Virus record (IMG/VR): IMGVR_UViG_3300017724_000031
Location: 1 to 33,721 of that record
Length of the DNA: 33,721 nt
Direction: 5' to 3' (one strand)
Source: a virus
Shown: positions 1,474-29,183 of the stretch, piece after piece
Layout: each line of letters opens with the position of its first letter
Numbering within the stretch: the stretch's first letter is position 1
Notes under the pieces: model-generated
Told to the model about the DNA's origin: nothing
Databases searched by the model: none
The model's input: only the letters and a program-made list of their open reading frames with translations
Translations under genes and position numbers: made by a program

Positions 1474-3276
1474 TTATAACTCTTTGTATTCCCACACATA
1501 GCTTCCCTCTATCACAATCGCACGCTTTGTCTGCAACGCATCCCGTGCATCTCTGCGCCTAGAACGCGTGCTATCAGGTGTTTTCGCACGGTGTTTGTCG
1601 TGCCATGCTGTCACCGGCACGCGCTCCTGACCCAGTTCGACAGACAGATTACGCAGTGCTTGCAGGGCTATCTTCTGCGGCTCTGTCAGCTTCGCACTAC
1701 GCGGTTTCTTCTCCGGCATATCAGCCTGTGTCATCACCACGCTGACATCGTCTATCAGCGCCACCGGGGTCATCGTAAACGCCACGTCCGGCATTGGCTC
1801 TGCGTCCTTCTGCTTCTCCGTCGCTAGCGTCACCGTCTCTTCTAGCTTGCTCACCTTGATGCTTGTATCCACAGCACCCAACAGCGCCGTAGACCCACGC
1901 ATGCCGCGTGCCGCGTCCTTGCCGCTGTGATGTATCGCCACCACCGCACATTCGCAGTGGCGCTTTACTATCTCACACGCATCCACAAACAGGCCCATAT
2001 CCGTTGCGCTGTTCTCATCACCGCCGAGCAGGGCGCGCGCTACAGTATCCACAAACACCGCGCTAAACTTTGTGTCGAGGTTGTCTATCGTGCGCAGTAG
2101 GCGCTCCACATCCTCTGGTTCGCGGAACCTCACCGCCGTGGGCAGAACATAAAACGGCACATCCGCTGTTAGCTTGTGATGCGCTTGCCATGCCTTGATA
2201 CGCTTGCCCAGACCGCCAACACCCTCGCCAGCTATGTACAGCACTGCGCCACGCTGCACAGGGTTATTGTGCCACGCCTTGCCATACGCCACTGACAGCG
2301 CCATGTCTATCGCTAGGAATGATTTACCAGCCCCCGGCTCACCGTACAGCACGCTAAACCCATGCTTGGTTAGTAACCCATCCACCAGCCATTCCACAGG
2401 CGGCATGTTACGCAGATAGTGTACATCATACACATCGAATACGTCTGGGCGTTCTGCCGGCGCTTCCACGACCTCTGGCGCCTGTTCAATCGGCTGCGCC
2501 GATGTGACCAGCGCCGCTAGCTCTTCCTTCGTACCACCAGCCTGTAGCCAATCGTAAACGTCTTGCTTATCGTCCAAGCCCGGCAAGTTAACGCAGTTGA
2601 TAGAGTTAACCACGGGCAACAGGTTTGCCGCCACTACGTCAGCATGTGCCTTGCCAGCCTCGTCAGCGTCAGGCAACACCACAACGTCACGCCCGGCAAA
2701 CCATTTATTGAGATCCGCGTGCCAGTTCTTCGCACCGCCATGACTGGTTGTTGCTACCGCACCCAGCTTCTTCATTGCGTCTGCGCACTTCTCGCCTTCC
2801 ACCACAAATATCTTTTTGTTCGGGTTGGCCATGATGTCAGGCAGATTATATGGCACTGGGGTAACGTCCTTGACGTTCCACACCCAGCCGCCCTTGCCGT
2901 CAGGTCTGCGCTGCCGAAATGTCTTTGGCTCGTATCGCACGACCTGATAGATGCACTCGCCATACTCATCTATGTAGTCGTATGCCTTACTCATGTACCG
3001 CGCTGGCTGGATGGTCTGTTGCACTTGCTTGGCTATGCCGAATTGCTTTTCCAGTATCTCCGGCAGACTGCGTAGCTGTGCGCCCTCATTGATGCGCACC
3101 ATGTCTATGACCCCGCCGCCTTCGTTGGCCTCGAAGTCAAACCATGTGCCTTTGCGCAAGTCCACACTGCGTGACCCATGCGTACCCCAGCGCAGTTCAT
3201 GGCCGCGCTTTTCCTTTGGTTCGCCCCAGTAATGTCTGGCTATCTGCTCTATATATGCTGCTATATTCTGTGTCAT
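1474..3276 (-). CDS. TOPRIM primase fused to RepA-like hexameric helicase
   Basis: The protein has 600 residues from ATG 3276, which follows the purine-rich GAAGAGGGAATAAG. An upstream TTG (3318) would add 14 residues but has no good ribosome site and falls inside a hairpin, so I rejected it. The N-terminal part (1-80) resembles the primase zinc-finger region but lacks the zinc cysteines. A TOPRIM domain follows, with FVVEGEKCADA at 157-167 and VVVLPDADEAG at 198-208. The C-terminal half is a RecA-fold helicase of the plasmid RepA or AAA_25 type, with Walker A GEPGAGKS at 312-319, Walker B VFVDT at about 407-411 and AIHHSGKD at 447-454. It should unwind the fork and prime DNA synthesis. No DNA polymerase is present, so a host enzyme is probably used. 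Confidence 0.9.
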   Translation of the reverse strand: MTQNIAAYIEQIARHYWGEPKEKRGHELRWGTHGSRSVDLRKGTWFDFEANEGGGVIDMVRINEGAQLRSLPEILEKQFGIAKQVQQTIQPARYMSKAYDYIDEYGECIYQVVRYEPKTFRQRRPDGKGGWVWNVKDVTPVPYNLPDIMANPNKKIFVVEGEKCADAMKKLGAVATTSHGGAKNWHADLNKWFAGRDVVVLPDADEAGKAHADVVAANLLPVVNSINCVNLPGLDDKQDVYDWLQAGGTKEELAALVTSAQPIEQAPEVVEAPAERPDVFDVYDVHYLRNMPPVEWLVDGLLTKHGFSVLYGEPGAGKSFLAIDMALSVAYGKAWHNNPVQRGAVLYIAGEGVGGLGKRIKAWQAHHKLTADVPFYVLPTAVRFREPEDVERLLRTIDNLDTKFSAVFVDTVARALLGGDENSATDMGLFVDACEIVKRHCECAVVAIHHSGKDAARGMRGSTALLGAVDTSIKVSKLEETVTLATEKQKDAEPMPDVAFTMTPVALIDDVSVVMTQADMPEKKPRSAKLTEPQKIALQALRNLSVELGQERVPVTAWHDKHRAKTPDSTRSRRRDARDALQTKRAIVIEGSYVWEYKEL

Positions 3277-3301
3277 CTTATTCCCTCTTCCCCTTTGGAA
3301 A

Positions 3302-3343
3302 TGGTAGGGCGCTGGCAAAGGGAGGAAACCCAGCGCCCTACCA
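3302..3343 (-). promoter_or_regulatory. Perfect 14-bp hairpin in the leader of the primase-helicase gene
   Basis: Bases 3302-3315 (TGGTAGGGCGCTGG) and 3330-3343 are perfect reverse complements with a 14-base loop. The hairpin lies between the stop of the SSB-like gene and the primase-helicase start at 3276, on the transcribed strand. No U-run follows, so it is not a classic terminator. Read on the minus strand, the loop is rich in CCTCCC and contains CCCTTTG. This is complementary to CAAAGGG just before the helicase ribosome site, so a loop-leader pairing could control translation. It may instead stabilise or process the mRNA. Confidence 0.75.
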
Positions 3344-3347
3344 ACTG

Positions 3348-3965
3348 CTAGAACAGGTCAGCGCCACTCGTTGCTGGCTGTTCAACAGGCGCATCCGGCG
3401 TTGGAGCCGGTGCGCTAGGTGCTTCCGCACCATCAAATGCCGATGGACGCTCTGTCCACTGGCTGATTTCCCACACCGGCACCTTGAAGCGCTGTTCGCC
3501 TTGCGGGGTGTTTACGGTTGTAGTCTTTGTGGCTGTCACCTTCATCACAGCACACAGGCCGGGGTTGTTCGCACGTTCAGCCTCGTATTGATTGTGTAGC
3601 TGGTCAAACGCAGACTGCACCATCTTCGACTGACTACTGAACTCACGCAAGCCTATCTCGCGGTTCACCAGCTTCACGCGAAACGCAGACTTGTGGTCTG
3701 GTGTCGGCTTGTCTGGCATGCGCTCACCCAGCTTGACCATGTGGAAGTCTGGGCGGTTGGCAACGAATGCCATATAGCCGACCTCGATGTTTTCCATGTC
3801 AATTGCTACCTCAAACGGCAACGCCATTTCGATGCTCTCACGCACCCATTCGCCGTTTACGTTCTCGCTTTCAACCCGGTAGAACTCACCCACCTTCGCA
3901 TCAAACTTTATTATTGGCGTGATGTTGCCACCGCCGCCGCTTTCATTTACTAAACCAAGTGCCAT
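3348..3965 (-). CDS. Probable phage ssDNA-binding protein
   Basis: The protein has 205 residues. A beta-rich N-terminal two-thirds (about 1-150) is followed by a Pro/Ala-rich flexible linker (about 165-195) and a short tail ending in SGADLF. This architecture of compact core, disordered linker and terminal hydrophobic tip is that of phage and bacterial ssDNA-binding proteins. The position between the cytosine methyltransferase and the primase-helicase in the replication operon supports this. The start ATG at 3965 follows AAGGAAAATAAA. I see no diagnostic OB-fold signature by eye, so the call rests on architecture and context. A general replication accessory factor is the alternative. Confidence 0.6.
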   Translation of the reverse strand: MALGLVNESGGGGNITPIIKFDAKVGEFYRVESENVNGEWVRESIEMALPFEVAIDMENIEVGYMAFVANRPDFHMVKLGERMPDKPTPDHKSAFRVKLVNREIGLREFSSQSKMVQSAFDQLHNQYEAERANNPGLCAVMKVTATKTTTVNTPQGEQRFKVPVWEISQWTERPSAFDGAEAPSAPAPTPDAPVEQPATSGADLF

Positions 3966-3983: not shown

Positions 3984-4865
3984 TTACTGACCAGTTGCGC
4001 TGGCCTCGCATTGCCGTATGGCAATCCCTATTTGCATTGCAATTTTTGGCACGATCGCATTGCCTAATCCTTTAAGTCTGTCCACCCTTCTGGGTACCCC
4101 ATTAGCCACTCGACCCACTGGGGGTTCAGGCTTCCACGTTTCCACTCGTCCGGGGTAGTCCCCCTGACCTCTGGGTGATTTCCTAGCATACCCTGCATCT
4201 TCCCGGCTGGCGTTCCAGCCGCATCCTCGTTGGCTGTCGGTGTTGGCCACATTTTCACTGTATCGGCTAGATTGAGGCTGTGACTGCTCTTGCCGTCTTT
4301 TGCTAGCCGCCTGCCGTTCTGCGTCAGTGTCATGTTGCTGTGTTCTATTTCTTGGGTCGTTGGTGTCGGCCACATTTCTGGCAACGATCCAGACGCGATC
4401 GCGTCTGTGCGGGGCATCGACACCACAAGCCGGTACAATAAAGCACCGTGCGGCGAACAAATCGGTTTCCAAGTCAAGTAGCACTTGGTCGAGACCCATG
4501 GAGACATGACCATAAACATTTTCGAAAACGCACCAAGCGGGTCGTTTTTGTGCAACAATCTCGCGGATGTGCGGCCAGATGTGGCGGTCATCTTCCGCGC
4601 CGAGGCGCTTCCCGGCTTGTGAGAATGGTTGACATGGATACCCGGCAGTAAGAATTGTATCTCGTCCCCCGGCTGAGATTTTTTCTGGCTCATTTGCTAA
4701 CACCTTTACATCTTCTTCGATTGGCACATCAGGCCAATGCTTTGCTAATATCTTGCGCGACCACGGCTCAATGTCGCAGAACATGGCTGGACGCGACAGG
4801 CCAGCCCATTCAAACCCCAGCGCAAATCCACCGATGCCCGAACATAAATCTATATGACGCATCAT
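3984..4865 (-). CDS. C5-cytosine DNA methyltransferase
   Basis: The protein has 293 residues with the ordered motifs of the Dcm/HhaI family: motif I DLCSGIGGFALG at 6-17, motif IV GYPCQPFS at 75-82 with catalytic Cys78, motif VI ENV at 115-117, motif VIII HRRDRVW at 153-159, and motif X LKGLGNAIVP at 264-273. It would methylate carbon 5 of cytosine, probably to evade restriction or mark phage DNA. The region between motifs VIII and X (about 160-255) is repetitive, with NVADT at 164-168 and NVANT at 205-209. A different reading frame across this part encodes another recognisable protein (4064-4693). The start overlaps the stop of the upstream 66-residue gene by four bases. ATG 4862 is an equally possible start. 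Confidence 0.93.
   Translation of the reverse strand: MMRHIDLCSGIGGFALGFEWAGLSRPAMFCDIEPWSRKILAKHWPDVPIEEDVKVLANEPEKISAGGRDTILTAGYPCQPFSQAGKRLGAEDDRHIWPHIREIVAQKRPAWCVFENVYGHVSMGLDQVLLDLETDLFAARCFIVPACGVDAPHRRDRVWIVARNVADTNDPRNRTQQHDTDAERQAASKRRQEQSQPQSSRYSENVANTDSQRGCGWNASREDAGYARKSPRGQGDYPGRVETWKPEPPVGRVANGVPRRVDRLKGLGNAIVPKIAMQIGIAIRQCEASATGQ
4064..4693 (-). CDS. Out-of-frame gene inside the methyltransferase: WPTPT / LNPxWVEWLMGYP family-like protein
   Basis: This frame is shifted by one base from the methyltransferase and lies wholly inside that gene. The 209-residue translation is not random. It has MWPTPT twice (107-112 and 148-153), the pattern SKMFMV then YLTWK (57-75), PRTDA at 94-98, and a C-terminal LNPQWVEWLMGYPEGW at 189-204. 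I recognise this motif set from a family of phage and prophage proteins usually found beside or annotated with cytosine methyltransferases. The first MWPTPT is encoded by the bases of NVADT, and the second by those of NVANT. The start ATG 4693 has no strong Shine-Dalgarno, so expression could be by internal initiation or frameshift. The translation is seen directly. The family assignment is from memory and expression is inferred. Confidence 0.6.
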   Translation of the reverse strand: MSQKKSQPGDEIQFLLPGIHVNHSHKPGSASARKMTATSGRTSARLLHKNDPLGAFSKMFMVMSPWVSTKCYLTWKPICSPHGALLYRLVVSMPRTDAIASGSLPEMWPTPTTQEIEHSNMTLTQNGRRLAKDGKSSHSLNLADTVKMWPTPTANEDAAGTPAGKMQGMLGNHPEVRGTTPDEWKRGSLNPQWVEWLMGYPEGWTDLKD

Positions 4866-5062
4866 TTGTTTGGCCGCCTGTTTGAGCTACGCCGCTTCAT
4901 TGCGATGCGTGCTGTGTGCGCAGATATAACAGAGCTACGCCACTTTGGGTTGCGCCATCTGTTGTTTACATCATGCCTGTCGTTGGCGTCAAACAACGCC
5001 TCACGCTGTTTCTTTAAATACGCGGCAAACTCTTCTACACTCATATCACTCGCTAGTTTCAT
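4862..5062 (-). CDS. Small basic protein, unknown function
   Basis: The protein has 66 residues. A short N-terminal helix (SVEEFAAYLKKQREALFD, 8-25) is followed by a basic C-terminal half with many Arg and Lys. I recognise no family. Its stop overlaps the start of the methyltransferase gene by four bases (ATGA type), and its start overlaps the end of the junction nuclease gene by 17 bases, which points to translational coupling in the early operon. An alternative ATG at 5044 would remove six residues and start right after the nuclease stop. Confidence 0.65.
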   Translation of the reverse strand: MKLASDMSVEEFAAYLKKQREALFDANDRHDVNNRWRNPKWRSSVISAHTARIAMKRRSSNRRPNK

Positions 5063-5483
5063 TGCACATCAACTCCCTTGCTACCATGCAGAAATCGTCA
5101 AACGTCATTTCGACCGCATACTTCCAGTCGTATCCATCGCCGGGCTGTCGCTCAAACGTGGCCAACATTGCCAATGCCTCGATAGGCACGCGCCAACGTT
5201 CCGGCAATCTATCGAATTTATAGACAAGCGCTGGTATCTTGCCGGCCTTGGTTGCCGCCACGCAAACCTGATCCCAATGAGCCGGCGAGGCAAACGTGCT
5301 ACCCTGCCGGTATCGTTTGCATTCAATTACAAACGGGAACGCGTCATCTTCACAAGTCAGGTCAGGCAAGCCAGCCTCTGCCCACTGGTCTAGCACCCGG
5401 CGAAACTCCAGCCCAAGCGCATCGTGCAGCCTGTTCTTCACATCACGCTCAAACGATGCGCCCTTGTTGCGAGAGTTAACCAT
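5046..5483 (-). CDS. Holliday junction resolvase-like PD-(D/E)XK nuclease
   Basis: The protein has 145 residues. It shows the catalytic pattern of the Hjc/VRR-type nuclease fold: Glu12 in KGASFERDV, Asp41 in GLPDLT, and Glu54-x-Lys56 in VIECKR. It probably resolves branched replication or recombination intermediates before packaging, or acts as a related structure-specific nuclease. The start ATG overlaps the stop of the upstream ribbon-helix-helix gene (AATGGTTAA). It lies in the early leftward operon with the primase-helicase and ssDNA-binding-like genes, which fits a role in DNA metabolism. Confidence 0.8.
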   Translation of the reverse strand: MVNSRNKGASFERDVKNRLHDALGLEFRRVLDQWAEAGLPDLTCEDDAFPFVIECKRYRQGSTFASPAHWDQVCVAATKAGKIPALVYKFDRLPERWRVPIEALAMLATFERQPGDGYDWKYAVEMTFDDFCMVARELMCNETSE

Positions 5484-6269: not shown

Positions 6270-6911
6270 ATGAAATTTATCGTCTACTACCGCGTATCTA
6301 CTCAGCGTCAGGGCCAATCCGGCCTTGGCCTTGAGGCACAGAAGCACGCATGTGCGCACTATGACATTGTCGCTGAGTACACAGAAGTCGAAAGCGGCAA
6401 GAAGTCCAACCGCCCGGAGCTAGCCAAGGCATTGGCGCACGCCAAAGAGATAGGCGCGACCCTGCTCATTGCAAAGCTCGACCGTCTGGCGCGTGATGCA
6501 CGTTTCGCGCTTGAGCTAATGGACAGCGGCGTGCTGTTTAAGTTCGCCGATATGCCAGACATCGACAACAGCACACCGCAAGGCCGGTTCTTCATTACAC
6601 AGTTTGCGGCTATGGCAGAGCTAGAAGCCGCCATCATCAGCGAACGCACCAAGGCCGCGCTAGCCGCAGCCAAGCGCCGTGGCGTAAAGCTCGGCTCACC
6701 TGACCCAGCCAAGGGCGGCTCAGTGACCGGCAAGCAACGCGCTAGCGCCACCGCACAGGTAGCGCCGCAAGCCATGCCTATCATTAACGCATTGCGCAAG
6801 GCCGGTCAGAGCCTACGCGCCATCGCATCCGCTCTTAATGAAGAGCAGATACCAACCGCCATGGGCGGTCAGTGGCACGCATCCAGCGTGCGTAACTTAA
6901 TCAATGCATAA
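6270..6911 (+). CDS. Small serine recombinase (resolvase/invertase family)
   Basis: The protein has 213 residues. The N-terminal resolvase domain (about 1-140) has the catalytic serine in FIVYYRVSTQRQG (Ser10), the conserved AKLDRLARD, and the dimer helix region ISERTKAALAAAKRRGVKLG. A C-terminal helix-turn-helix (about 165-213, SLRAIASALNEEQIPTAMGG) should bind the crossover site. It recombines DNA through a phosphoserine intermediate. Phage integrases of this family are usually much larger, so integration, resolution of multimers and inversion of a segment are all possible. I cannot identify attachment or crossover sites. It lies in the rightward operon after a 36-base gap with a good ribosome site. 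Confidence 0.9.
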   Translation: MKFIVYYRVSTQRQGQSGLGLEAQKHACAHYDIVAEYTEVESGKKSNRPELAKALAHAKEIGATLLIAKLDRLARDARFALELMDSGVLFKFADMPDIDNSTPQGRFFITQFAAMAELEAAIISERTKAALAAAKRRGVKLGSPDPAKGGSVTGKQRASATAQVAPQAMPIINALRKAGQSLRAIASALNEEQIPTAMGGQWHASSVRNLINA

Positions 6912-7045: not shown

Positions 7046-7798
7046 ATGGAAATCATCACACGCAAAGAGGCACAGGAACAGGGGTTGCCTCGATACTTTA
7101 CTGGTAAGCCGTGCAAGCATGGTCACGTTTGTGAGTTCTATTGCCGGAGCGGCGCGTGCGTTGACTGTACGGCATCGCGTGTTAATGCAATCCGCATCAA
7201 GGCCAAATCTAAGCGTAAAAGCTCTGGCATATACAAGCTAAAAGAAGCTAAAGAGCTTGGGCTAGAGTATTACAATAACGGCAAGCCATGCATCAACGGC
7301 GTTTTTGGAATGAGAAAAACAAAGCAAAAAGGGAAGTGCTTCTGTTCAGCTTGCTACAACAAATTAAAAAACCGTGCAAAGAGGTGTTTGGAAAAGAAGC
7401 GCCGGGAAGCCGGTGTGCCACCGCGAACTTTTAGAACAGAACAGCAAAGAAATGACACATACAAAAAGTGGGTGGAAGAAAACAGGGCAAGGGTGAATGA
7501 GCAGCAAAGGAAATGGCGGCAAGCCAACAGGAAAAGACTGCGCCCTTACCAATCTGCTTACAATGCAATACGTTGGAAGAGAACTAGCATAGTGCTTGCA
7601 AGGATACATTTTGACAAGATTTTGTCGGTTTACAAGAAAAGGGATAAGGTAACAATGCAGACCGGCGTAGAACATCACGTTGATCATATCGTTCCGCTTT
7701 TAGGCAAAAATGTATGCGGCTTGCACGTTCCTTGGAATATGCAAATTTTACCAGCAAAACAAAACAGAATAAAATCCAACAAATGGGAGACAAACTAA
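7046..7798 (+). CDS. HNH endonuclease, homing-type
   Basis: The protein has 250 residues. Near the C-terminus (about 210-240) it has the HNH signature [12 protein letters not shown] then NMQILP. The N-terminal region carries two copies of a GKPC-containing, Cys/His-rich module (about 16-41 and 73-105), found as zinc-binding DNA-recognition units in phage HNH enzymes. The central part is very basic. From about 7200 on, the base composition is clearly AT-richer than the exonuclease and recombinase genes around it, which suggests recent arrival. It is likely a mobile homing-type nuclease that cuts related phage genomes lacking it. A packaging-associated HNH role is less likely, since the terminase is 23 kb away. 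Confidence 0.85.
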
Positions 7799-8766
7799 TG
7801 GTCGGAAAACTTACACCTGACAACATGCTATCAGCCTCGCGCATCGCGCAGTTGATGGGTCAATCACCATACGCAACGCAAAACGAATTGCTTGCTGAGT
7901 TCATAGACCGCGATGCTGGCAAGGAGCCGGAGCCGTGGGAAGGCAATGAGCTTACGCGCTGGGGCGACATCCATGAAGGCGCGGTTATTGCAGAAACATC
8001 CCGGCGCCTTGGCCTTGTTGATGTGCAAGCAGACTTCGAGCAAGCGTTTTTCCATGACAAGCTGCGCATGGCGGCATCGCTGGACGGCATGGCTACCGGC
8101 ACGCGCATGGTGAAAGAGGATCACGCGCAGGGCATTATAATCCCCGGCGTTGCAAACGCGTTCTCAACAGCCGACAAAAAATTGTTGCTGGAAATCAAGA
8201 CAACGCAGCAAGCGGCGGAAGATTTGCCGCCACCACATCGCGGTGTGCTACAGCTACAGGCGCAGATGATGTGCGCCGGTGCAGACATGGGCGCGGTGTG
8301 TGTACTCTATCGCGGCTCAACCCTGCGCATTTTCCTGTATCACGCTGACGCTGGCGTACAGGCACGCATTGCACAGGCTATTGAAGAGTTCGAGCAACGC
8401 CGCGCAGACATAGACTGGTATCCGCTAATGAACCCGGCTGATGGCAACGTGGCCTACAGCCGTGTCGATGATGTGGCACAGCCTTTGGACGTATCAGGCG
8501 GCGAGGTTCAGGACGCTATCGAGGCTTTGCTTGAGGCGAAGCGCGCTAAAAAAGAATGCGATGAGGTTATCGCTGACGCAGAAACGGTTATCAAGGACTA
8601 TATGGGCAACCATGAAGAGGCAAACACCGTTGTGGATGGTAAGCGTGTGATAGTTAAATGGGGCATGCGCAACATGAAAGCTACGCAAGAGAAGGTAGTG
8701 CCGGCAAAGCCAGCTATGCGCGTGCGTCAGAATGCTTTAACCGTGAAGGAATTGGGCGATGCGTAA
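7798..8766 (+). CDS. YqaJ / lambda exonuclease-like recombination nuclease
   Basis: The protein has 322 residues from ATG 7798, which overlaps the HNH stop (TAATG) and follows GGGAG at a suitable distance. An in-frame ATG at 7714 lies inside the HNH gene and was rejected. The PD-(D/E)XK core of the YqaJ family is visible: RWGDIHEG (about residue 57), ASLDG (about 91-95, metal-binding Asp), LLEIKT (about 128-133, Glu-x-Lys) and LQLQAQM (about 146-152). It should resect double-stranded ends 5' to 3' to prepare single-strand annealing. No separate RecT/Beta annealase is recognised; the SSB-like protein might fill that role. Confidence 0.9.
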   Translation: MVGKLTPDNMLSASRIAQLMGQSPYATQNELLAEFIDRDAGKEPEPWEGNELTRWGDIHEGAVIAETSRRLGLVDVQADFEQAFFHDKLRMAASLDGMATGTRMVKEDHAQGIIIPGVANAFSTADKKLLLEIKTTQQAAEDLPPPHRGVLQLQAQMMCAGADMGAVCVLYRGSTLRIFLYHADAGVQARIAQAIEEFEQRRADIDWYPLMNPADGNVAYSRVDDVAQPLDVSGGEVQDAIEALLEAKRAKKECDEVIADAETVIKDYMGNHEEANTVVDGKRVIVKWGMRNMKATQEKVVPAKPAMRVRQNALTVKELGDA

Positions 8767-15737: not shown

Positions 15738-15766
15738 ATTATACCTTATTTTTTACGATTACTGAA
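15738..15766 (-). promoter_or_regulatory. Possible promoter for the tail-fibre genes
   Basis: In the 38-base gap before the fibre gene the minus strand has a perfect TATAAT (plus-strand 15738-15743), with a weak TTCAGT 17 bases upstream (15761-15766). It lies 17 bases before the start codon, so the leader would be very short. The weak -35 box makes this tentative. Confidence 0.35.
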
Positions 15767-18701
15767 CCGCTATAATTTTCTGGTCTAAATGCGTGTCCTC
15801 GCGGCGCACTCTTTTTATAGCCGCGCTTTTAAACTGGCTGATGTAATCCATCAAGTCCTCGCGCTGCTCTTCTCTGGTTGGCAAGGCTTTATATTGGTCT
15901 GTAAGTATGCGCGCCTCTAATAAAGGCAAAAGCGTTAGACTGTAGTCAAAGCCATCCTCGCCCTCTTGTCTGCCGCGTGCATCTGTTTTGTTCATGTAAG
16001 TTAGGATTTTATTGTACTGGCTTGCGTTTAGTAACACGCCGTCTATCTTTTTGCTCGGCATTGGTATGCCTTGCCCAAGTCTCATTATCTCTTGGTCAAC
16101 CGCGCTAAACTTTGTTTCAGCGATGCGTATTGGCGAAATCATTTCCCAACCAGCGCCGGTGCCTTCCATCATCCTTTCGCCCCACAGGTTCAACCGTGGC
16201 TCAACAGTATCGCTAAAGAATGGGTTGCGCGCCTTTGCTTTTTGCAACGACATATAAAAGCCTCTTGCAAACGCGGGTAGCTCTGTGATGTCTGTGCCAA
16301 GCACTTGACCCTCTGGCAGCAAGTAAGAGCCAGCTACCGGGCCAGCGGCGCCCTCTCCCGGCTCCATAGTTCTTTCAAGAGACGCTGTGCCAGACGAGAC
16401 AGTTGGAAGCAAAGACAAACCGGCGTCAGTTAGCTTTTTGGCCGCTAGCTCGAAAGCGGCTTCGGTCATTTTTTCTTCGCTTCTAAATATTGACGATAGC
16501 TCTTGCACGCCCTGCAAGAATGGCAGCGACAGAGTGTAGTCGGCAATGCCCCCGGTAGCTGCCATAGCAAGATTGTCTAGCGTGCCACTGTCATCCTCGT
16601 ATTGTGCATAGTAAGCAAAGTCAGCAGACATAGCCAACAGCCCCGACATTGGGTCTAACCGGCTAAAGGTCATGGACTTATACTTGCCTGTCCATGTACC
16701 GTCATCATTGTATATTTTAAAATTTAGCGAATAAGGTTGTATTCCGATACGTTGCATGGCCTGACGGGACTTTGCGTTTTTCGGGCCTTTGCCAACTATA
16801 ATAACGCGCTCATCAGGGTCGTCTAAGCCCATAGATGCAAACGCAAACCCGCCCATAATTGTAGACCCAAGCGCCATTTTTGATAAAGCTATATCTGCGT
16901 CACGTCCGCCGGCTTTTATTTGCGCACGAATGTTTGGGCTTAGGGCCGCCAAGGGCGTGCGCGTAAGCGTTTGCTTTACGATGTTTGTTGGGGTGCGATA
17001 GAACGGCACAAACAGCTTTGCTATTGGATGTGATGCAATCCCCTGCAATCCGCCAAGCAAACCATCCACATCGTTTTGAAACGTCATCTCTCTGGCCGCT
17101 TGTTTGGCGGTTTTCATAACGCTAACAGGCGGCTCTGCCAAAATGCTTGCATGCTCTAGCGCCGCCATCTGCCTAGCTTCTTCTACGCTCTTACCCGCAT
17201 CTATTAGCTCATCATACAAGTTGCCAGCCGCTATCTCTGCTTGCTCATGCACTGTCATGCGGTAGGCTATGCCCTTGAAAAACTCATCTTCTGCCAACAA
17301 GAAACGACCCGGCATGCGCGCATACACGCCCAGCGTGCTAACAACCGCAGCGCCGGTGTTTTTGTTTCTGATCTCTTGCATTATCTCGCGCGGGTCGCCT
17401 GTTGTACCTATTGCGCGTCTGTTGCGAACATCAATTTTTGTCGCCGCCTCTGTGCCTTCCTCTGTTATAAATGACTTAGCGGCGACAAAAAACGCATCGC
17501 CCAAGCCCTTTCTAATACCATTAAGCTGGGCAATGGCTTGGCGCGCCTTTACTCTCTCTGGGTTGCTGCCCTTCCGCAAAGTGCGCAGTTTGCCAATGCC
17601 AGACGCAAGTGCTGTTTCCGCTGTTCGGGTAATCATAAACATACTGTTACCGGCTATGTTTACTGCGTGTGTGGTGCCAGCCGATAGTATAGAGTTAATC
17701 CAAACCTCTGTTATAACGTCCATAGTTTTTGCGCCTAGACTTTGCTCAACAAACTTGCCCTTTGCAAGCGCGTCAGGCAACGCCATGTAAGCCTCGCCAA
17801 TATGCTCAAAGTCCTCTATATTCTCAGCGCCAAACATTCTGGTAATGCCTTCCGCGCGCTCACCAATCTCGCCTAGTTCCAGCTTCTTGCCGACCACGCC
17901 AGCAACTTGCAACGTGCGACCGGCCTCAGATACAGCGCCGCTGACATTGGCCAACAGCACGCCCTGCGCTGACATTAACTGCATAAAGCGCGTCATAGCC
18001 GCTTCGCGGTCTGCGCCCTCTGGCAATTGCTTTGCCGCAATAAGAGCCGCGTCTGTTTCTTTAATTAGCTGGTACGACCCAATAATGCCGCCAAGCACTT
18101 CTTCCGCATTAGCCGCCATGCCGGGCTTACGCGTAAGCATATCGACAACAATGTTATTCACGCCCTTTTCTTTGACGCCCTCTAGCACAGCGTCAAATCC
18201 TACAGTGCCACGCCGTGCTTTTTCAAATAGTTCTTCGTTTGCGTCTTTTAGCCTAGCTGTGTAGTCGGCTAAGTCAAACTCACCCATTTGCTCTGATATC
18301 TGCGGGAAGTTTAGCCCCTTAACGTATTGGCCACCTAGCGCTTGGCTAATAGCGTCAACATCCTCTTGCGCGGCCTCTTTAATAACTAGCCTACCGCCAA
18401 CCTCTTGCACCGGCTCATCAGGCAGCTTTTTGCCTAGATTTACCTCGGCCTGACGGGTGCGCTTTTTAAGGTAGTTTATTATAGGCCCGGTGGCGGCGAC
18501 CTCGATGTTTTCAGGGTCATCGACAGACGGCGCTTGCTCCATGCCCTCTTGTATGACGCTCACCGTTTCTTCGGTGGTCATTTCTTGTGGCGTGTCAGGC
18601 TCATGCTCAAACAAATCCATAGTCTTTTGCTCTGCGGCAACATCCTTTGCCTCAGTGCTGGCTACCATTTCGTCTGTTTTTTCTTCAAGCAGATCGGCCA
18701 T
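15759..18701 (-). CDS. Large internal virion (DNA ejection) protein
   Basis: The protein has 980 residues, the largest in the genome. It lies where T7 encodes gp16, between another ejection protein and the tail fibre. The N-terminal 60 residues are acidic and probably disordered. The remainder is largely helical, with hydrophobic or amphipathic segments such as STIMGGFAFASMGL at about 605-625 that could insert in the host membrane during ejection. I see no lytic transglycosylase motif of T7 gp16. It probably forms part of the inner core and a channel for DNA entry. It overlaps the upstream gene by 17 bases. The role is from position and size, not a motif. Confidence 0.75.
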   Translation of the reverse strand: MADLLEEKTDEMVASTEAKDVAAEQKTMDLFEHEPDTPQEMTTEETVSVIQEGMEQAPSVDDPENIEVAATGPIINYLKKRTRQAEVNLGKKLPDEPVQEVGGRLVIKEAAQEDVDAISQALGGQYVKGLNFPQISEQMGEFDLADYTARLKDANEELFEKARRGTVGFDAVLEGVKEKGVNNIVVDMLTRKPGMAANAEEVLGGIIGSYQLIKETDAALIAAKQLPEGADREAAMTRFMQLMSAQGVLLANVSGAVSEAGRTLQVAGVVGKKLELGEIGERAEGITRMFGAENIEDFEHIGEAYMALPDALAKGKFVEQSLGAKTMDVITEVWINSILSAGTTHAVNIAGNSMFMITRTAETALASGIGKLRTLRKGSNPERVKARQAIAQLNGIRKGLGDAFFVAAKSFITEEGTEAATKIDVRNRRAIGTTGDPREIMQEIRNKNTGAAVVSTLGVYARMPGRFLLAEDEFFKGIAYRMTVHEQAEIAAGNLYDELIDAGKSVEEARQMAALEHASILAEPPVSVMKTAKQAAREMTFQNDVDGLLGGLQGIASHPIAKLFVPFYRTPTNIVKQTLTRTPLAALSPNIRAQIKAGGRDADIALSKMALGSTIMGGFAFASMGLDDPDERVIIVGKGPKNAKSRQAMQRIGIQPYSLNFKIYNDDGTWTGKYKSMTFSRLDPMSGLLAMSADFAYYAQYEDDSGTLDNLAMAATGGIADYTLSLPFLQGVQELSSIFRSEEKMTEAAFELAAKKLTDAGLSLLPTVSSGTASLERTMEPGEGAAGPVAGSYLLPEGQVLGTDITELPAFARGFYMSLQKAKARNPFFSDTVEPRLNLWGERMMEGTGAGWEMISPIRIAETKFSAVDQEIMRLGQGIPMPSKKIDGVLLNASQYNKILTYMNKTDARGRQEGEDGFDYSLTLLPLLEARILTDQYKALPTREEQREDLMDYISQFKSAAIKRVRREDTHLDQKIIAVQ

Positions 18702-27641: not shown

Positions 27642-29183
27642 CTATTCCTCTATTGCTTGCCCAGCTTGCATCGCCATCTGCGCCGCTTGCATCTGCGCCA
27701 TTTGTTCTGCCATCTGTTGGCGCTCTTCTGGCGAAGTGCGTAGCTCTGCCGGTATGCCCATCTTGTCAGCCACATGGTCTGCGATAGCGCCAGTGCGCAC
27801 AGCCATTTGGCCATCTTGTCCAAGTGATGCGGATAACTGCACCCACTGCATTATCTTCTCAATGCCGCCCATGTTCTGCGCTTGCGCGATAGGTGACACC
27901 GGCTGCACCTTAACCTCTAGCCCGTTTACCTTTAGCGGCATTTCAATCATTCCGCGCTCATCCATTACCGCAAGAATGCGAGAGACAACCGGGATCATGG
28001 TTTCTGTGATTAGACGACCAAACGAACTACCCATATTGCTGGCTAGCTCAGATATCTTTGCCGACACCTCTGTAGCTGACCGGGCAGACATATTGTCTGG
28101 GGGTAGCGTGTCGTCCATCATGATTTTTTTAATATTCATGCGTAGGTCATTGATAATAATCTGCGACACGTTAAAGTCACCAGAACGCGGCAACATGCGC
28201 AAGCTCTCACCCTGTGGCCCACCGTTACGCGCAACCGGGATAATAGCACCCGGCGCAATGCGTATGGTCTGCGGGTTTAGCACGCCATCATCTGCCGCTG
28301 TATATACACCAGCAATAGACAGGCTAGCGTTTTTAAGCAATAGCTCTAGCGTTTTGTTCAGTGTCTTGATGTCAGCAATAGCTGTGACCAGTGGGCCACG
28401 CCCATACACCTCGCCAGCTACCTTCATATAGCGCGCCACAACCCAAGGGCTAGACTTCATAGTGCGCTCTACAATGGCTTCCTTACCTTCCTTCTCGATA
28501 ACATAATAATTGTATTCGCCCGTATCTAGGTCTAAGCAAGTAGCCTCAACTAGCTCTATCTCTTCGGTAGGCTTATCGTCAATCATACGCTGTAGCTTGG
28601 CTGATATCTCCGCGTCATCCCAGTGTTGCGTAATAGCTTCTGCTTTCATACGCATACGCCGATAGACGTTATCGACCTTGCCGTGCGCACCTTCCTCGAT
28701 GCACACCAGATATTGAGGCACGGCGGTGAACCGGATGGGAGTGATGTCATCACCGGGTTGGATAAGCATCACCGCCGTACCAACTGCTAAGTCCATGAGA
28801 AACTCACCCATAGACAAATCAAAATTAGTTTGACGCAACAGCGCAAACATCTTGTCGCTGTAAATATCTAGCGCAGCCTGTGCTTCAATACGGCGCTCAA
28901 TAGGAATGTCTGGCCCCGGCTCTAGGCGGCACCAGTTAGATTGTGGCGGGAATAAGCCAGACTGAATACGGTTAGCAAAGCGCTGCGTGGAATTGATAGC
29001 GGTGCTATCAAACACGCGCGCCATTTTGTTTTGGCCGGGTGACCCGCCGCCCTCATAATAGCCGTCATACAAGTTGCGCTGTGGTAGCGCAAACTCATAA
29101 CAATCTTCATATATCTGGCGCCAGTTGTCCTTGCGGCGTTGTGCCAAATCGTGGCGCTTCAATATTTGTGCTGGGGTCATCAT
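27642..29183 (-). CDS. Portal protein (head-tail connector), T7 gp8-like
   Basis: The protein has 513 residues, near T7 gp8 (536). It has the N-terminal pattern RKDNWRQIYEDCYEFALPQR, then RVFDSTAINSTQRFANRIQS followed by LFPPQSNWCRLEPG, all typical of podovirus portals. The C-terminus is Met/Gln/Ala-rich and helical. The dodecamer forms the packaging vertex and docks the terminase. It overlaps the upstream 88-residue gene by four bases. Two ATG codons in a row start the gene; either could be used. Confidence 0.9.
   Translation of the reverse strand: MMTPAQILKRHDLAQRRKDNWRQIYEDCYEFALPQRNLYDGYYEGGGSPGQNKMARVFDSTAINSTQRFANRIQSGLFPPQSNWCRLEPGPDIPIERRIEAQAALDIYSDKMFALLRQTNFDLSMGEFLMDLAVGTAVMLIQPGDDITPIRFTAVPQYLVCIEEGAHGKVDNVYRRMRMKAEAITQHWDDAEISAKLQRMIDDKPTEEIELVEATCLDLDTGEYNYYVIEKEGKEAIVERTMKSSPWVVARYMKVAGEVYGRGPLVTAIADIKTLNKTLELLLKNASLSIAGVYTAADDGVLNPQTIRIAPGAIIPVARNGGPQGESLRMLPRSGDFNVSQIIINDLRMNIKKIMMDDTLPPDNMSARSATEVSAKISELASNMGSSFGRLITETMIPVVSRILAVMDERGMIEMPLKVNGLEVKVQPVSPIAQAQNMGGIEKIMQWVQLSASLGQDGQMAVRTGAIADHVADKMGIPAELRTSPEERQQMAEQMAQMQAAQMAMQAGQAIEE

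Follow-up and report, generated by a model that had tools for sequence, protein, structure and literature searches.

What is encoded by a 209-codon reading frame that lies inside the gene for a C5-cytosine DNA methyltransferase (MTase), shifted from it by one base? The window, by which we mean the whole stretch of DNA analyzed, is a virus record of 33.7 kb. It is a tailed-phage genome, and contains an AAA_25 protein (window 1474–3318), a PDDEXK_15 endonuclease (5046–5483), a serine resolvase (6270–6911), a YqaJ-like recombinase (7714–8766) and a head-tail connector (27642–29183). No restriction enzyme was recognized among the scanned neighbors. A 980-aa ORF in the structural half (15759–18701) had no Pfam match.

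The MTase, here called alpha, is 293 aa long, is encoded on the minus strand at 3984–4865, and matched PF00145 (E = 6e-31) and phrog_363. The nested protein, beta (209 aa; 4064–4693, minus strand), is read in the +1 frame relative to alpha. Its entire length matched phrog_1008, a family labelled ‘DNA methyltransferase’ (E = 2.5e-27); Pfam and NCBIfam gave no match for beta, and no sequence relative of it was found in the PDB. An earlier note on this DNA had described both ORFs and their offset, and our analysis confirmed them, as it did the observations that the bases of NVADT and NVANT in the MTase are those of two MWPTPT motifs in the nested frame, and that LNPQWVEWLMGYPEGW lies near the C terminus of the latter. 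The statement that the MTase has all motifs held only in part. The AdoMet-binding and catalytic motifs I, IV, VI, VIII and X were present in alpha (PF00145, invariant PCQP, EN and G-N, C5-MTase fold), and motifs I–VIII and X are in frame, but motif IX is absent from this chain and sits in the 209-aa frame, to which LNPQWVEWLMGYPEGW belongs. The earlier reading also missed the MTase’s own target-recognition region and motif IX inside the nested frame. Motif IV (PCQPFS) includes Cys78 (codon at 4632–4634, minus strand), which is the catalytic residue in C5-MTases; P77, C78, Q79 and P80 were invariant in 66 sequences. Motif X (GLGNAIVP; 4047–4070, minus strand) had invariant L267, G268 and N269.

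Each of the diverse nested members tested (74/74) matched phrog_1008. This family carries its ‘DNA methyltransferase’ label though Pfam finds no MTase domain there. Many beta members also matched phrog_26627, phrog_27243 and phrog_31772, which look like pieces of one family. A text match for phrog_1008 proved to be phrog_10089 and was discarded.

A gene within the methyltransferase gene

The open +1 run in the window is 210 codons, a length reached in none of 500 synonymous-codon shuffles of the MTase (shuffle mean 107). At 46 of 73 distinct loci in all, no shuffle among 500 reached the observed open length. The shuffles gave p ≤ 0.01 for the +1 frame in 68 of the 73 distinct relatives, and p ≤ 0.05 for the +2 frame, used as a control, in one of 73. 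In all of 80 viral loci chosen by beta, no stop interrupted the MTase frame within the beta span, and the beta frame itself was open nearly throughout, while the third frame contained 6–36 stops. Because the first loci had been picked with beta, relatives were picked again by the MTase alone; all 67 distinct MTases obtained in this way (67/67) matched beta, and their +1 frame was open for 150 codons or more. Third-base identity at four-fold sites of the MTase was 0.44 before beta, 0.66, 0.72 and 0.87 inside it, and 0.35 past the beta stop. Synonymous suppression in the MTase is confined to the overlap. We concluded that this +1 frame of 209 codons is a genuine gene nested in that of the MTase.

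The nesting is constant among relatives. Profile scans of genome and viral contigs gathered 319 related loci. They come from phages and from many phyla of bacteria, including Bacillota, Pseudomonadota, Bacteroidota, Acidobacteria, Chloroflexi and Verrucomicrobia; in every one of the loci (319/319) beta lay at +1, with the same offset, inside an MTase. These loci do not support the earlier suggestion that members of the second family occur on their own or next to MTases; neither the 319 loci nor the plasmid and E. coli records that we inspected contained a standalone beta. In 3 of the 319 loci, the MTase frame is interrupted by stops inside the beta span. Named phages with the locus are Paenibacillus Rani, Lacticaseibacillus R23.9, Escherichia Ivi, Pseudomonas 5399 and Microcystis Mwe-JY08, and relatives also occur on Paenibacillus, Leptospira and Rhodoplanes plasmids and within E. 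coli prophages.

Probable division of the enzyme between the two frames

We examined selection in 941 pairs among 162 sequences, with changes classed by their effect in each frame and a bootstrap over sequences. By this simplified site-class count devised here, in which pairs are non-independent and segment borders were set via regular expressions, the alpha-frame ratio was 0.16 in the N-terminal part, 0.20 in motifs V–VIII, 1.16 [1.08–1.23] in the target-recognition region, 0.67 [0.49–0.89] in motif IX and 0.29 in motif X. In the overlap the beta-frame ratio was 0.44 in motifs V–VIII, 0.44 [0.39–0.48] in the target-recognition region and 0.14 in motif IX, and in non-overlapping controls it was 0.72 (N-terminal part) and 1.01. 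Codon periodicity agreed, the target-recognition region being most variable at the third position of the beta frame. Both frames are constrained in motifs V–VIII; in the target-recognition region only the beta frame is, and alpha is neutral. Synonymous-site suppression and purifying selection in both frames, the signs that the earlier note had named, were both seen, and together with the nesting at 319/319 loci they support its proposal that the same DNA encodes two protein families.

The AF2 model of alpha (pTM 0.71) fell below pLDDT 50 at residues 196–229 and 245–253, and was confident again at motif X (pLDDT > 90). A fold search in the PDB with this model returned matches including HhaI, HaeIII and DNMT1 (C5-MTase catalytic fold), and HhaI aligned with alpha over motifs I–VIII only. 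In the target-recognition region, the alpha-frame sequence contains few hydrophobic residues (0.17) and many of the residues QSRGN (0.44). Because of the neutral ratio, the predicted disorder and this composition, alpha apparently has an unconstrained linker in place of the expected target-recognition domain (TRD). AF2 gave a poor model of beta alone (pLDDT 65.5, pTM 0.33), and a fold search in the PDB with that model returned nothing.

The putative motif IX in the beta frame (GSLNPQWVEWLMGYPEGWT; 4079–4135, minus strand) has the spacing LxPx5LMG[FY], which is also that of the in-frame motif IX of the monomeric MTase L333 (RRLTPRECARLMGF). Motifs IX and X are short, and beta showed no significant match to four monomeric MTases when profiles were compared; the assignment of motif IX to beta therefore rests on spacing, position and precedent. 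In ~700 genomes, sampled by taxon through three seed genomes and surveyed to address the bias of picking loci by beta peptides, the 11 MTases without beta all had an in-frame motif IX (11/11; several assignments were by eye, and L327 had a weak partial beta-profile match), and the remaining MTases carried beta. This partition is as expected if beta is the enzyme’s missing part.

Motif X is able to move into the beta frame. We found natural REARRANGEMENTS at six loci (L178, L343, L344, L345, L346 and L350), where a stop ends the alpha frame after motif VIII, and motifs IX and X both follow in the beta frame, as in that of L346 (LNPDWVECLMGLPIGWTDID...HRVARLKALGNGVVPAQIAPV). An MTase profile built in this analysis recognized motif X in the beta frame of all six, and a Pfam scan of these extended betas returned no family. 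Because several of the six are close relatives, they represent fewer than six independent events.

Alpha has no in-frame motif IX and no constrained TRD, and both appear to lie in beta; therefore, the locus is very probably one two-subunit C5-cytosine DNA methyltransferase of the M.EcoHK31I kind, made from overlapping frames, with alpha catalytic and beta targeting in trans. Alpha would bind AdoMet and carry catalysis through motifs I–VIII and X. We infer that beta is translated from its own ribosome-binding site within the alpha gene, and that its C-terminal half supplies in trans the target-recognition region (with two WPTP cassettes in the window) and motif IX. The N-terminal half of beta, which overlaps alpha motifs V–VIII, probably docks beta to alpha, and the resulting heterodimer would methylate phage DNA, most likely against host restriction. 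That the two proteins work as a pair, as the earlier note had supposed, is by computation the most likely reading. Such a locus could have evolved in three steps: a frameshift after motif VIII would have placed the TRD, motif IX and motif X in +1; the new frame would then have grown upstream, forming the docking region; and a second shift may have brought motif X back to alpha.

It is unlikely that the TRD resides in alpha and that beta gives motif IX only, as the published account says of M.EcoHK31I (PMC3404938). Besides this precedent, the alpha frame is open across the region in nearly all loci; that openness is explained, however, because alpha must reach motif X. Moreover, alpha is neutral in the region (1.16) where beta is constrained (0.44), the region is disordered in the AF2 model of alpha, and there are six loci in which alpha ends after motif VIII.

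Somewhat less probable still is that beta is a separate protein with its own function, such as anti-restriction, which overlaps the MTase gene by chance. Beta does have its own start and is under selection, and its binding to alpha is our proposal from the evidence above. But among the 319 loci it was never met without an MTase, it occurs just where alpha is without motif IX, and motif X has been able to move into it.

The start of beta bears on a third alternative, in which beta is made as a fusion to the N-terminal part of alpha through programmed frameshifting. In the window the beta start codon is an ATG (4691–4693, minus strand), and a Shine-Dalgarno-like AAAGGTG, read from the sequence, lies 7 nt 5' of it (4701–4707, minus strand). 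Relatives start mostly with ATG, GTG or TTG near MTase codon 55–60, and many of them have AAAGGAGTTAG (AAAGGAG) upstream. The mean anti-Shine-Dalgarno energy was −6.1 kcal/mol vs −3.5 kcal/mol for synonymous resampling; because the median per-locus p was 0.17, we treat the signal as support, not proof, of an own start for beta. The +1 offset would permit frameshifting, but many loci have a stop just before the beta start, followed by a Shine-Dalgarno-like site and a start codon, and we judge the fusion very improbable. The earlier note had allowed for overlap or frameshift: the overlap stands, and frameshifting is unnecessary, since the nested frame comes with a start codon and a Shine-Dalgarno-like sequence of its own. 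Finally, the idea that the frame is open by accident, or as a consequence of the codons that the MTase uses, can practically be dismissed: MTase conservation does force part of the +1 similarity, and the +1 ratio in the N-terminal control was 0.72, not 1, but the codon shuffles and synonymous-site identity led us to reject this explanation, the +2 control and selection ratios likewise refute it, and loci exist with only beta intact.

The WPTP cassettes of beta

Between motifs VIII and IX, beta carries 1–5 blocks of ~40 aa, each headed by a [WLF]PTP-like motif, and the number of these cassettes correlated with length (r = 0.71). The window’s beta has two, both also found in other loci. Cassette 1 (WPTPTTQEIEHSNMTLTQNGRRLAKDGKSSHSLNLADTVKM; 4250–4372, minus strand) is shared with other loci at 0.73–0.85 identity, with backbones 0.26–0.42 identical. 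Cassette 2 (WPTPTANEDAAGTPAGKMQGMLGNHPEVRGTTPDEWKR; 4136–4249, minus strand) is shared with L019, L255, L260 and L285, at other positions or in diverged backbones. In 876 similar block pairs from betas with backbone identity <60%, which were selected for block sharing and are non-independent, mean block identity was 0.78 vs 0.49 for the backbone. The blocks exceeded backbone identity by >0.15 in 771 of these pairs, and 432 of the 876 were at different ordinal positions. Identical blocks at different positions, in backbones ~35% identical, indicate that cassettes are exchanged. At L068 and L052, the beta frame stays open along the full MTase, and beta has several cassettes and a long extension at its N terminus.

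Multispecific C5-MTases of Bacillus phages (SPR type) have several tandem target-recognition units (PMC8936443). The WPTP cassettes are also tandem and ~40 aa long; unlike the SPR-type enzymes, which are single-chain, the window’s units lie in a second subunit that is read out of frame, and each cassette would be a putative recognition unit. We propose tentatively, as a possibility of nearly even weight, that beta is an exchangeable targeting subunit, that each ~40-aa WPTP cassette is a DNA-recognition unit, and that by swapping cassettes among distant MTases phages alter their methylation sites or gain further ones, all in the second frame while the first merely stays open. Arrays of this kind suggest that nature has an exchangeable code for the targets of cytosine methylation.

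Related systems and occurrence

To our knowledge, a two-frame MTase has been known from only one or two restriction-modification MTases. Lee, Kam and Shaw reportedly showed in 1995 that the small polypeptide of M.EcoHK31I is nested in the large gene in another frame, and that both are needed for activity. The +1 nesting of the window’s beta, as at all 319 loci, is like this arrangement. M.EcoHK31I (YGGCCR) consists of two polypeptides, with motifs I–VIII and X in the large one and motif IX in the small one (PMC3404938). Compared by described layout, the window is alike in having motifs I–VIII and X in alpha and, on short-motif evidence, motif IX in beta. The two differ in that the published account places the M.EcoHK31I TRD in the large subunit (PMC3404938), whereas the corresponding region in the window is constrained only in the small one, and in that the window’s MTase is a phage gene with no recognized restriction enzyme beside it. 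A TRD in the small subunit bears on targeted methylation, for which M.EcoHK31I has served as a naturally split scaffold (PMC3439449).

M.AquI is a split C5-MTase whose two subunits are divided around the variable region (PMC3404938). The six loci with motifs IX and X both in beta (L178, L343–L346 and L350) resemble it; the window differs from it in having motif X in alpha, and in that its genes overlap across most of beta. In the Paenibacillus larvae phage Rani, the same nested ORF in the same position is annotated as an ‘internal gene’ (RANI_51, ‘g50 Internal gene’). RANI_51 is listed as a hypothetical protein without function, unlike the targeting role proposed here for beta.

Within a partial open-access coverage of the literature, we found no paper on nested MTase genes in phages. 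Judged from that literature, what is apparently new is the breadth of the arrangement, the TRD in beta, and a beta targeting region composed of 1–5 exchanged ~40-aa WPTP cassettes. Across many bacterial phyla, the two-frame enzyme is common in phages and prophages. Annotations usually show its locus as a single gene, or as two entries with no stated relation, named ‘DNA methyltransferase’ or hypothetical. The locus offers an unusually clear case of dual coding, with the functional frame visible segment by segment.

Several individual loci depart from the usual layout. In L170 (Bacteroides finegoldii plasmid, ~2101–3420), the beta frame is open and the N-terminal part of the MTase frame contains two stops; a decayed copy, a sequencing error and recoding are options. 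In L168 (E. coli PCP07014 prophage, 2367–3128), the annotation makes the MTase a pseudogene because of a stop within it; a stop also interrupts the beta frame at about the same place, so that both frames are damaged together. In L172 (Paenibacillus polymyxa plasmid pAP1, 2296–3786), the +1 frame has two successive beta C-terminal ends within one long MTase frame; a stop comes after each of two LNPxWVECLMGFP motifs, which looks like a duplication of the TRD-IX segment.
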